From Sycon ciliatum (lineage: Eukaryota > Porifera > Calcarea > Leucosolenida > Sycettidae): 64,000 bases of DNA. Location of the stretch: assembly GCF_964019385.1 (NCBI RefSeq), contig NC_088646.1, positions 8,803,071 to 8,867,070 on the forward strand. Reading direction: 5' to 3'. A program made the position numbers and the translations under genes. This document shows, piece after piece, positions 7,353 through 20,778 of the stretch. Position 1 is the first letter of the stretch; each line of letters opens with the position of its first letter. The notes under the pieces were generated by a model, which worked only from the letters and a program-made list of their open reading frames with translations, was not told the origin of the DNA and did not search any database.

Positions 7353-10300
7353 ATGAGCGCAAGAGATGAATGGGACGTATATTTCCAGCAGCTTCAGGAG
7401 CCATCAAAGCTGCAGGTTCAGGCTGAACAAGTCCGTCGTTTCGTGAGTGAACATGCAAAGGCCAAGCGTCGCATCGCTTTAGTCACGGTAGGGACCAAGC
7501 TGTAGTATTGTTTATTGGAATATTGAACAAAATATTCGATCGTTCCATATTACATTAGGGGTCGTCCGTAATTTTCGAAAAATTAAAAAATCCGTCCTCG
7601 TGCAAAATTGTCTCTGACCCACGTACCCACCCCTCATTTTTTCCCATTAATTTTTTGATTTTTACCGATGCCGGCATGCCCAGCTCGAAAAATAAGAACT
7701 CCTGACCCCATGTTTTCTGACTGCACCTGTGTCAAGTACTAGTAGCTAAGTACAGTGAGTACTGTGAATCAACAAATTTTGGCCGATGACAAACTTTGGC
7801 CGATCTCGAAAGGAAACTTTTGGCCGTCATTTAACTTTGGCCGATTTGGGTTTTCAAAAAAGAAATCGATTGGTATTTGTTGCCCTCACATGCAGCGATG
7901 GCTCAATAATGCATCATTTGCCTCTATGACAAATTTTGGCCTGCGATTTACTTTGGCCGGTTGGTACCCAGCGGCGAAATCAGCGAAATTAAATCGCCAG
8001 CGAAAATTAGTTGATTTACAGTATTAGGTCTACCGACGTCCCGGCCATGCACCGTCCTACAACTACATGAAAAGTCCTGTATTATCATAGTAGATACTGG
8101 TGTTAGCGACAATCGATCCTACACTACGTATACAGTGCAGTACACAGTCAGCTATAATCAGTGCAACAAGTGTATGAAAGTCACTGGAGCAAAAAAAAAA
8201 GTACGAAAAATCAAAAAATTAAATTCCGCCAGCACTCTTCACCACCCACCCCCTTTTTGCCTGAGGACGGATTTTTTAATTTTTCGAAAAATACGGACGA
8301 CCCCTTACACGTTTATGTATAAATGAAATAATGAGAGAGCTTGGAAGCTCAGGGCCCTACGCTATGCTTTTTTTGCCTTGCTGACCTAGGGCGCGTTTGG
8401 TTGGTACGAACTAGAACAGGATTCACCAGAACAGCGCGTTTGGTTGGGACTGCACCTGTTCTGGTTCTGGGTCGGCCAGAACATGTTCTGCTTGCTCCGG
8501 CCTCGAGGCCGGAGCAGACCGAGCAGTTTCACTTTTTCACAGTGAAACCTGGCGGGAACATCGATTTTGTTCCCAAATGATCACGTGCATACGCTTTTGG
8601 GTTGGACTCGTCGTACCGTACAAAGTGACCATGGTGATCCATACACATTTTGAAGAATGCACCAAGTTCGGCACATTTTTCCACAAAAATGTGCTCTGTT
8701 TCTGGAGTAGCGTTTGGTTGGCATGAGGCTGCTCCATGTGCACCAGCTGTTCGATCCTGTTCTAGATCGTACCAACCAAACGCACCCCTAGACAAAAAAA
8801 AGCATAGGGATGTTATAAATTATTTTAAAAAATCCGTTTTTTTAAGACATAACCTGGGATTCGAACCCGCACTATCGCGCGCCCTGCATGCATCCCCCAA
8901 TACACTTCGCATACATTAAGTTTTGTTTGTTTGTGTCACGCCTGGCGCTATCCGTATCTACCGGCAAAAAAAGCATAGGATGTTATAAATTTTTCAATTC
9001 TCCTATTTTTTTTTCAGGCATATCCTGGGATTCGAACCCGCACTATCGCCCTACATCAAGAGTTCATAACCCCCAAGAGTGTGCAACGGGCATAGACCCA
9101 GCGCTCGGCGAAATTCCTACATTACGTCATGCGCAGCGTGTCATCCGAGGTAAATTTGGGTTCTTTGCGATTTCTGGAAACTATACCCTGAACCACTGTG
9201 AACCGCCCCTAACTCAAGGCTGTAGCCTCGACTTTTCGAAGCTTTTTTTGAAGACATTTCGGACGTACAAGTCGTACTTTCTCAAAAACAAACTCTTTCT
9301 CCAAGAATCCATGGACATCGCGACAGGAAGAAGTGAGGACGCTGTTAAAAATATTGCATTGCCGTCGAGGACAATCATTCTGATAGCTGTGCAACTCAGC
9401 CGAAAAATGCTCCTTCGACGTATTCTCAAGTTCCTCAACCATTTGAAATTATCTTCCAGGAAAGCACCAGAAATATGCCGATGGCCTGGGGAAGAAATTG
9501 TTCTTGAAGAGACTGACTGCACTGGTGAAAGAAGAAGGCGATGAAGAGTCACCATTGCATCGAAAAAATAGTTTTGTCTTTCTATTCGTGTGCATACTTT
9601 GTTTCACTTTTGCTTCTTGACTCGAGGCTCAGACTAGAATCGCAGTTTAGGCAGTTTACCCTGGGGAAGCATCCTGGTTTGACTGTAAATTTTAGAAGAA
9701 TTCATCGGCGTGACTCATCGCACTGCACCAAAAATGACGCAATGAAGGAATTCCGCCGAGCGGGCTTCCATACAGGGACTGATCAGGAGTTGCACACTCT
9801 TGGGGGTTATGAACTCTTGCCTACATGCATTCCCCCATACACTTCGCATTCATACCCATTCTTCCAAGTTGTTTCACATTGTGATCTTGCATTTGAATAT
9901 GCATTGTGGCCAGCCGTCTTTGATGGCACGGTACGGTAGGGGATAGGTACGGGACAGGTACGATCGAGGGTAATACGACACCGTCTCCCATACCGTACCG
10001 TACCATCAAACACAGCTGGCCACATACAGCTGCCCGCAATATTCAAATAGGGCTTTCAAACGCAAGATAATAACGTGAAGCAACTTGGAAGAATGGGTAT
10101 GAATGCGAAGTGTATGGGGGAATGCATGTAGGGCGATAGTGCGGGTTCGAATCCCAGGATATGCCTGAAAAAAATAGGAGAATTGAAAAAATTATAACAT
10201 CCTATGCTTTTTTGCCGTCAGATACGGATAGCGCCAGGCGTGACACAAACACACAAACAAATACCAAATTAAAGCTGTGTGGACCCTGGCTAGCGCCAGA

Positions 10301-13300
10301 CGTTACTGAAGTAACGTCTTCTGCATAGCTACGGGAATAATAATTATTTCTAGCCTTTACACAAAGCGTATTCCGAAATCAGAGATGTCTCAAAATCAAT
10401 GTTTTCAAAATAGTGACCAAAGTCCTCGATGCACCAAAGCCTGATAATAGAGAGGTTCTGCAAAACGAAAATTCGAACGAAGTTTTGCGACAGTCCTTGC
10501 GAAAGTGTGTATGAATTTTTGCACGAACTTTGCGTTCTGCACATTTCGTAGTTTGCGCGGGCCAAGTGCACGTACGCCATGACCCGATCTCACGAAATTT
10601 CCTACGACAGTTCATTTCGCGTTCCCTGCACGTTTCGCGTCCAAAGTTGCGAAAGTTCGTGCGAAGTTTCGCACTTCATGATGTAGAGCGAAAGTTTGTA
10701 CGCATTTTCGTTTTGCAGAACCTCTCTAGTACTCTCTTTAGTCTATCTGCCAAAGCAACACAGAATCAACACAGATTTAATGCAGTGTGTACAATACCTG
10801 ACAGCGCGACATGTTGACAGTACATGTACTGTACGCGAGAGCCGCGTGCATGCAGTGCACACATCTACAATTCTAAGTTTCTAACTGTTAGTGCTACACA
10901 CATTACCATGCGGACATGGTTGTGTGCCTCACGTATACATGTGCATAATATTTAGGCTTGTGCACAAAATGTTTTCAATTATTTTTGAATTTTGGTTGGA
11001 TTTTCGCACTTTGATTTTTTTTGGAATTTTGGCCCCATCAGGATTGAATTTTGGCCGTTTTTGGAGAACGACAGTGCTGTCACATCTAGAGAGTACATGT
11101 GCTGCTCAATATTACCAAATTTGACATGCGAAAACAGTACTTTAAAATACACACACCTTTGACCTTTTTGACACCCATCCCCGAATTTGGAAGCACACAG
11201 ACTCACATGATAAGCAGTTTGTGGATTAATTTTTTAATTTTTTTATTTTTTGGAACTACAGGTCGTCCCTCGTTAATACATAATCTCTGGGACTTGACAA
11301 ATGTTATGTATTAACGGGGTTTATGTACTAAACGAAAGTGTACATAACTTGCTTGTATACCAGAATTTTTCACTTTTTTCAACTTTTCTGAGTGTTTCTT
11401 GCTACCATGACTAGGCAGCGAGATATTCTTGATTCCCTCGATATAACATAAAAATTATGTTATAACGGTCACATTTAGCGAAGATTCTACAGTTGACATG
11501 GTACATGCCCAGCCGCACCTGTACAGTCACTCGAAAAAAAACAGAGCTTTGTCGGTTTGTGATGTGCGCTCTGATTTCGATGCTAATTGCGTCCACAAGT
11601 AGAAACTAGAACACGATGTGCCTCCACTGGAAGGCCAAAAGACAAGTAAATTATGTACTATTGAGGTAGGTGACATGCAGGTACGGAGAAATGTTATGTA
11701 CTAACGGGGTTTATGTACTAACGGATTATGTACTAACCGACAAAATTTGTATGGAAGTGACCACGTTTCGTCCGGGACTTGAGATTTCTTATGTACTAAC
11801 GGGGTTTATGTACTAACCGGACTCGTATTAACGGGGGACGACCTGTATTGGGTATGAGTACTGTAAAAACCATGGCAACGGATCGAATTTTTTCTGCATT
11901 TTGGGGGATTTTTTGAATTTTCTTAAAACATTTTGACCGGTTTTTTCGCTTTTTGAATTTCAATTTTGGACAAAATAATTCGCATGATGTGGCCACCCTT
12001 AAAATAATATTAGTGTTGAAACCTGGGTATACCCACTTATGTACATGTGCATAATATGTACATGTATGTTTAGAATATAAGCTGAGTCACGAGTGTTTAC
12101 GGGAAATAAAAAACCGAGGCGAAGCCGAGGTTTTTTGCAGAGGGTTTTTTCCCATAAACACGAGGGCAAAGCTTATATTCTATTTAAATTATAGTATAAA
12201 AACCTCCAGTCATTTTCCTAAAAAAGTGGTTTATAATTATAGCACCAGATTTTTTACAGCACCAGGTTTTTTATACAGGTTTTTTATAGCACCAGGTTTT
12301 TTATATGAGTGATTACCAGAAATATTACAGGTCTACTCTCCATATAACGTAATCTCTGGGACCACGCACAAATTATGTTATATTGAGAGTTATGTTATGT
12401 AGAAAACCGTGTGTAAAATACAAGATGTACTGTAACTGCTTTTTAGAACAGGAAATTGACTGGAGGTTTTTTATACTATAATTTAAATTATCATATAATT
12501 ATGATAATATGCATGAATTATTGTTTGTATGGTTGCATCAGATATAGCAAGAGTACATAAACCAGAGTGTGCAACTGTGCATATCAGATCTGAAACAGCG
12601 CAGTTCGTGCACTACGTCACCCTGATGAGATCAGCCAAGCCGCGACTTGCGTAGAGCTCAAATTTTCATGTTTCATAGCCCGGAAATCAGCCAAGTTTGC
12701 TTGATTTTAGACGTCCTGTTTCAGGATTTCGGTGTTTTGTGTGACTGTGTACGCTGCGTACATCCACCGACATGTAAAGTCACCAGGCTATCCGTCTCAA
12801 AAAACCGAAATCAGGACAAACTCAGTGAACTGCACCACCGCGACTGGTTACGCAACTTTTCACCGTACCTGTGGCTTACCATGCCGTCAGAAATGACGTA
12901 GTGCACGAATTACGCTCCCACAGGAACCATCCCGAGTTGCACACTCTGGTTTATGTACTCTTGGATATAGTGATAACATTGCAGAAATCTAATGGTACGC
13001 TATAGCAAGAGTACAGTCATAATCCCCAAGAGTATGCAACTCCAGCTATGGGGTCTGCGGTAGACATAGCCCGATTTTGCTAGCAATTCTGCTAGCAAAA
13101 TATCGAGAATTTTGACGAAAGAATTTGCTGGCAAAACGGAGCAAAATATCGGTATGTTCGCTGGAAATTGGGAAATTTTACACTTATACGGTACATGTGA
13201 CTCATTTTCGTACATTTTTGCCAACACGTGACTCATTTTTTCTCATTTTTGCCGACAAGTGACTCATTTTTTCTCATTTTTGGCAACACGTGACCCACTT

Positions 13301-20424: not shown

Positions 20425-20778
20425 CAAGAGTCCATAAACAAGAGTATGCAACTGTGATCTCTTTTCTATGGGCCAGATGCGCGGCGCGCTGCCTTCATTA
20501 CATCATTCAGCTGCAGTCCGCGCACTGCGGAAAATCGAACACCGCACTTTTCCTCTGGGTTGAAATAAACTTTCGTACGGAACTGAAGTTCACGCGCCAG
20601 AATTTAGAGATTGCGTAGGTACTGGAACGAATCGAGCAAAAACAGATGGGCTCGTACGAGAAATTGTGAGTTTGAATGCATGCTTTCAGAGCGTGATGAA
20701 GGCAAGTTACATAATGAAGGCAGCGCGCCGCGCACTGACCCATAACCACAGTTGCATACTCTTGTTTATGCACTCTTG
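20425..20778. mobile_element. MITE of the 7-bp-duplication family (copy d)
   Basis: TIR CAAGAGTCCATAAACAAGAG then TATGCAACTG, inverted at the right end with one change. Flanked by CACACAT at 20418-20424 and 20779-20785. Subterminal GCGCGGCGCGCTGCCTTCAT is also inverted on the right side. A poly-C run (20811-20834) follows the element. Confidence 0.88.

Follow-up and report, generated by a model that had tools for sequence, protein, structure and literature searches.

Which transposase moves the short non-coding elements found in a 64,000-nucleotide stretch of the calcareous sponge Sycon ciliatum (contig NC_088646.1, positions 8,803,071 to 8,867,070; hereafter the window), and with what spacing does it cut its target? 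Four such elements, W1 to W4, had been proposed in an earlier note made from the letters alone, each one flanked by a perfect 7-bp target-site duplication (TSD), and all four are present with their duplications exact (Table 1). As argued below, W1-W4 are very probably miniature non-autonomous transposons of the P superfamily, derived from two-gene elements of ~6-8 kb and moved in trans with a 7-bp stagger, the product of the second gene (open reading frame 2, ORF2) being a probable accessory.

The termini of W1-W4 consist of CAAGAGT/ACTCTTG outside and a (A/C)AGAGT-RTGCAAC copy inside, so that the end doublet and inner TGCAAC originally described hold overall, with the exception of W2, where the inner AAGAGT reads CAGAGT. 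When every CAAGAGT/ACTCTTG pair of the window with a spacing of 60-20,000 bp was checked for perfect direct repeats of 3-11 bp on its two sides, five pairs qualified, all at 7 bp and none at 3-6 or 8-11 bp; they are W1-W4 and a tentative fifth element, W5, absent from the earlier note. With up to two mismatches, the window contains 14 instances of the inner motif against a mean of 4.5, a count reached by none of 100 shuffles. Moreover, inspection by eye located an empty site of W1, with a single CCTACAT, in the opposite foldback arm of its host repeat (~10115-10155). A subterminal ATTACGTCAT-like (CRE-like) motif lies 65-75 bp into several ends; with one mismatch allowed, it does not occur in W3, W5 or the autonomous element L056 described below. 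A lone GTACACTCTTGGGGTTATAAACC at 36180-36200 resembles a decayed single end of the group.

Table 1. Elements with shared ends in the window, their flanking duplications and the repeat nested in W3
Feature	Position	Strand	TSD and remarks
W1, MITE (miniature inverted-repeat transposable element), 763 bp	9057..9819	+	CCTACAT at 9050..9056, second copy 9820-9826
W2, MITE, 416 bp	12548..12963	+	GATATAG at 12541..12547, second copy 12964-12970
W3, MITE, 680 bp including nested repeat	13006..13685	+	GCTATAG at 12999..13005, second copy 13686-13692
W4, MITE, 354 bp	20425..20778	+	CACACAT at 20418..20424, second copy 20779-20785
W5, tentative fifth element	32997..34566	not assigned	GTACTAC; CAAGAGT/ACTCTTG ends without inner TGCAAC
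Nested repeat within W3	13060..13458 (approximate boundaries)		genome matches covering it alone

The fixed length of the duplication, already advanced as a property of the group, was confirmed in the 538-Mb, 313-contig assembly, where the copies examined were the best-scoring ones and decayed copies are for this reason under-represented. All 40 scored places of W4 were examined (the window copy included; best 40 of 1147 candidates): 32 of them keep an exact 7-bp TSD, four have one mismatch, one has two and three have 3-5, and no copy is exact at 5, 6, 8, 9 or 10 bp. For W1, exact duplications flank eight of the 10 copies examined among 40 scored places (480 candidates), the other two showing one and three mismatches. 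The 19 single W2-type copies, taken together with one tandem pair from 41 listed full-length rows (547 candidates), all have exact 7-bp TSDs and differ from the window copy at 0-3 positions in 416 bp; its 40 scored places (best 40 of the 547) are 98-100% identical, and W2 is the youngest family of those examined. The tandem pair (L106, C2:16915100-16916022) comprises two opposite copies in the order GTTTGAC-element-GTTTGAC-element-GTTTGAC, that is, two successive insertions at one target. Nearly all the scored places are full-length for W4, W2 and W1 (40 each), and the classification of the elements as MITEs stands, since they are non-coding, 354-763 bp long and of high copy number, and carry the ends of the autonomous elements L052 (W1) and L053 (W4). 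W3 fits this definition in part, with few full-length relatives among its best 40 places and no parent. Its best relative is 81% identical over positions 19-660, and 22 of those 40 places span only query positions 48-60 to 449-456, which is the nested ~400-bp repeat alone; as judged by eye, this repeat is missing from a W3-type copy near 9417 of L052. W3 thus looks old, and of the differing interiors formerly noted, that of W3 is largely the nested repeat.

A target logo was built from 63 distinct sites (69 collected, six removed as the same site, W5 excluded). Of these sites, 50 have T at position 2 of the TSD, 57 have A at position 6 and 45 combine the two, against a background of 6.5%, and the preference extends beyond the duplication to an A four bases upstream (43/63) and a T four bases downstream (33/63). 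The target is therefore the palindrome TATnn[nTAnTAn]nnATA; in a 37-site set, none of 500 same-size random sets was as palindromic. The logo S-M-Y-A-Y-A-K first proposed from four copies matches four of the 63 sites and is not supported. Two sites were used more than once. One is a single base of a repeat, occupied by W1 and by two W4-type copies (L078 and L082); the other, GTATTAG in a different repeat, is shared by five W4-type copies (L016, L026, L075, L077 and L079, with L077 reversed). Both patterns may reflect either repeated insertion or a later duplication of the host repeat. The repeat that hosts W1 (8792-10200 and 53677-54019) is a foldback, possibly tRNA-related, and carries GGTTCGAATCCC, which we take to be B-box-like. 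A W1-type copy, L121, lies in this foldback ~20 bp past the base used by W1, L078 and L082.

Longer copies with the same ends, which had been suggested as the source of the transposase, do exist. They are autonomous elements of ~6-8 kb with two genes, and their perfect terminal inverted repeats (TIRs) of 33-36 bp keep the doublet, with further repeats inside. The left end of W1 matches the transposase-side end of L052 and that of W4 the transposase-side end of L053, whereas no parents were found for W2, W3 or W5, the last showing no similarity to the autonomous elements past the ends. As the transposases of the two lineages behind W1 and W4 are ~58-65% identical, the idea of one unseen transposase for all subfamilies is not supported. 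Both the family model (PF21787, P-type RNase H) and the fold identify the protein as having the fold of the Drosophila P transposase, residues 316-799 aligning structurally onto 155-566 of 6p5a in a comparison that covered mainly residues 316-806. In the aligned rows (query included), D418 and D520 are found in 22 of 22 and E781 in all 18 ungapped ones, residues presumed to be the P-element catalytic triad by motif and order, not by residue superposition. On the other hand, no THAP domain was matched by Pfam at E ≤ 0.1 in three transposases, the fold comparison covering mainly residues 316-806, and no Pfam match to the GTP-binding insertion domain PF21788 was reported in the transposases scanned. 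The frames of 839 and 883 amino acids (aa) are open in several copies, and the L054 transposase, used as query, matches "uncharacterized protein LOC135806751 [Sycon ciliatum]" with 100% identity along 98% of its length. Of the 44 PF21787 matches, 20 were studied in 10-kb stretches; eight further autonomous candidates, seen in short stretches, have both ends and an exact TSD in three cases and one end in five. Duplications of 7 bp in a palindromic target fall in the 7-8 bp range given for the P superfamily in PMC4168063, and we assign the MITEs and their autonomous relatives to this superfamily, W2 and W3 only through their common ends and TSD.

The same genome harbours a second P lineage with 8-bp duplications. 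In their aligned parts, the PF21787 proteins of 14 loci (L037-L050) share ~21-25% identity with those of the 7-bp group. Five loci (L038, L040 and L042-L044, the last three being near-copies) end in CAGGGAG and are flanked by 8-bp duplications; in the other nine, convincing ends were not recognised. C2H2-like zinc-finger matches occur in six of six scanned loci of this lineage, above the cut-off in four, and ORF2 gave no tblastn match in the 10 kb fetched around L037-L050. Both lineages thus share PF21787, and the 8-bp group differs in its zinc fingers, its CAGGGAG ends and the lack of a detected ORF2. A transposase tree by a quick method split it from the rest (SH-aLRT 100) and interleaved the 7-bp loci with database homologues of unrecorded TSD (four changes), with long branches flagged; this tree, which left out L043, L044, L047, L049, P0008 and homologues of ≤570 aa, was not used to date the 7-bp duplication. 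Further TIR and TSD candidates at L048 (8-bp ACCCGGGT), L039 and L044 (7-bp), as well as an imperfect 7-bp pair at L040, were taken as unconfirmed or due to chance. The L056 element (~840-6970) lies within a 31-bp palindrome, CAGGGAG..CTCCCTG, with the 8-bp GTTGGCAG on either side; this palindrome looks like a minimal relic of the 8-bp lineage.

The second gene of the 7-bp group is convergent with the transposase, reading from the opposite end, and encodes 423, 435 and 401 aa in three perfect elements, mutually 35-44% identical. It belongs to no Pfam family above the cut-off (sub-cut-off matches to Thioredoxin_4, Utp14 and Ribonuc_red_lgC were too weak and disregarded) and has no sequence relative in the PDB, where a profile search gave chance-level hits (E 0.54 and 0.8). 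Among the matches listed from a 5.77-billion-sequence database there is at least one homologue (P0007, 417 aa, on a 2026-base contig), whose single-sequence structure model was unusable (pLDDT 37). In the genome, 98 rows match ORF2: 21, representing 19 loci, extend past the N-terminal piece, and the remaining 77 match N-terminal stretches confined to residues 1-150, a pattern that deletion derivatives of the L054 type would give.

Such an orphan could be a host or passenger gene picked up by the elements without taking part in transposition, an explanation we hold as rather unlikely. Besides the missing Pfam and PDB relatives, it would account for L051, whose transposase is accompanied by no ORF2 match within the 10 kb retrieved, and for a full-length ORF2 at C11:20840503 with no PF21787 match within 8 kb. 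However, ORF2 keeps the same place and converges on a PF21787 match at 14 of the 19 loci, with 2.0-3.4 kb between the matches (the other five, among them the full-length copy at C11:20840503, do not), its frame is open in all seven elements with both ends located, and it is conserved between lineages whose transposases are ~50-61% identical. Moreover, between families the proportion of nonsynonymous differences (pN) is 0.40-0.47 against a synonymous one (pS) of 0.73-0.84, near saturation, which indicates purifying selection on a gene whose frame is open in each of the four families that were read (L052, L053, L054 and L056); the comparison is between families, the sole close pair, L054/L055, having too few changes. 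ORF2 is probably an accessory protein acting with the transposase in DNA binding, complex assembly or regulation. A stronger version, which we advance tentatively and with somewhat less than even confidence, is a two-component P lineage whose transposition needs or is controlled by ORF2, which may replace the undetected THAP function, coexisting with the 8-bp lineage where no ORF2 was found. No description of a second gene in P elements was found in the literature, as far as the available texts go, with subscription journals and Repbase Reports outside the search.

Other superfamilies fare much worse. For hAT elements the duplication is typically 8 bp and the target pattern nTnnnnAn, which the core nTnnnAn seen here resembles, and a 588-aa open frame with DUF4371 (2-1765, minus strand), presumably hAT-like, runs off the window. 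In a Repbase paper, the example query concerns hAT families with 7-bp TSDs (PMC4455052). Nevertheless, hAT-type elements with a shortened duplication are very improbable, as the opened elements with these ends encode P transposases, no parents having been located for W2 and W3, and 0/40 W4-type copies are exact at 8 bp. Dada-superfamily MITEs would be in keeping with some of the insertions, which return to a single base of a repeat with a tRNA B-box-like stretch. With duplications of 6-7 bp but no TIRs found, and with definable-end elements targeting defined small RNA genes (PMC3706591), Dada is next to impossible for the opened elements, which have perfect 33-36-bp TIRs, 63 distinct sites for the group and a P transposase fold.

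The sequence of events in the P-superfamily reading would start with internal deletion of the ~6-8-kb elements to give the MITEs, as suggested by end-to-end matches for W1 and W4 and by shared ends and TSD only for W2 and W3. The P-type transposase would most likely recognise the TIRs (outer CAAGAGTnCATAA, inner AGAGTRTGCAAC) of full and deleted copies in trans, excise the element by cut-and-paste and insert it with an offset of 7 bp between the two strands of the palindrome, repair of this stagger producing the exact duplications; the ORF2 product may act together with the transposase in these steps. Since near-identical W2 copies coexist with open transposase frames, the data suggest recent, and perhaps continuing, mobility of the system in this early-branching animal.

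The window also contains a 603-aa open frame (26371-28182, minus strand) with a DDE_Tnp_1_7 match (E 1.4e-86), which we take to be piggyBac-type. Two pairs of identical direct repeats, 22169-22468/32266-32565 (~10.1 kb apart) and 45772-45988/47561-47777 (~1.8 kb apart), are possible long terminal repeat pairs, the latter enclosing a frame (46038-47150) with an integrase-type and a weak gag match. Finally, a near-perfect 24-bp tandem array with several frames open occupies 61071-62066.

The P superfamily is best known from flies, mosquitoes and fish, and these MITEs of a calcareous sponge are now placed in it. Other cut-and-paste transposons with two genes exist, such as Harbinger with its Myb-like protein, MuDR with mudrB and En/Spm with TnpA, which are alike in having a second element-encoded protein but have transposases of other superfamilies, ORF2 matching no Pfam family above the cut-off. 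What appears to be new is the sponge P lineage with its second gene, together with the presence of 7-bp and 8-bp lineages in a single genome, which lends itself to comparing how a transposase sets its insertion stagger. No report of the 7-bp group was recognised in the accessible literature on S. ciliatum transposable elements or P elements in sponges, subscription journals and Repbase Reports lying outside the search, and nothing was found in that on "7-bp target site duplication" with MITE or on Linheiro/1360.

Much of the initial surprise dissolves, in this regard, because P-derived MITEs and 7-bp duplications were both known, from Anopheles and Galileo respectively. The Anopheles gambiae P-MITEs keep 5′ and 3′ parts of P elements with the same 8-bp TSD (PMC1562414), alike in derivation but different in TSD length, and no second gene is mentioned in the excerpt available. 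The P element of D. melanogaster and zebrafish THAP9-Pdre2 have TIRs with internal inverted repeats and internally deleted copies, and the P element shows 17-nt staggered donor cleavage and GTP dependence (PMC7776569); the Sycon elements share this TIR architecture, the deleted copies and, with Drosophila, the transposase fold, but have 7-bp instead of 8-bp duplications and the convergent ORF2. The closest likeness in target is to Galileo, whose 7-bp duplications (GTANTAC/GTATTAC) lie in a 15-bp palindrome, with three D. willistoni copies having 8-bp TSDs (PMC4168063), so that 7 bp is neither as rare nor as indicative of Dada as the earlier note had held. Both belong to the P superfamily and have many non-autonomous derivatives, but the TIRs of Galileo are long and foldback-like and its transposon includes a THAP domain (PMC3688188), whereas the Sycon elements, with no THAP detected, have TIRs of 33-36 bp and a second gene.

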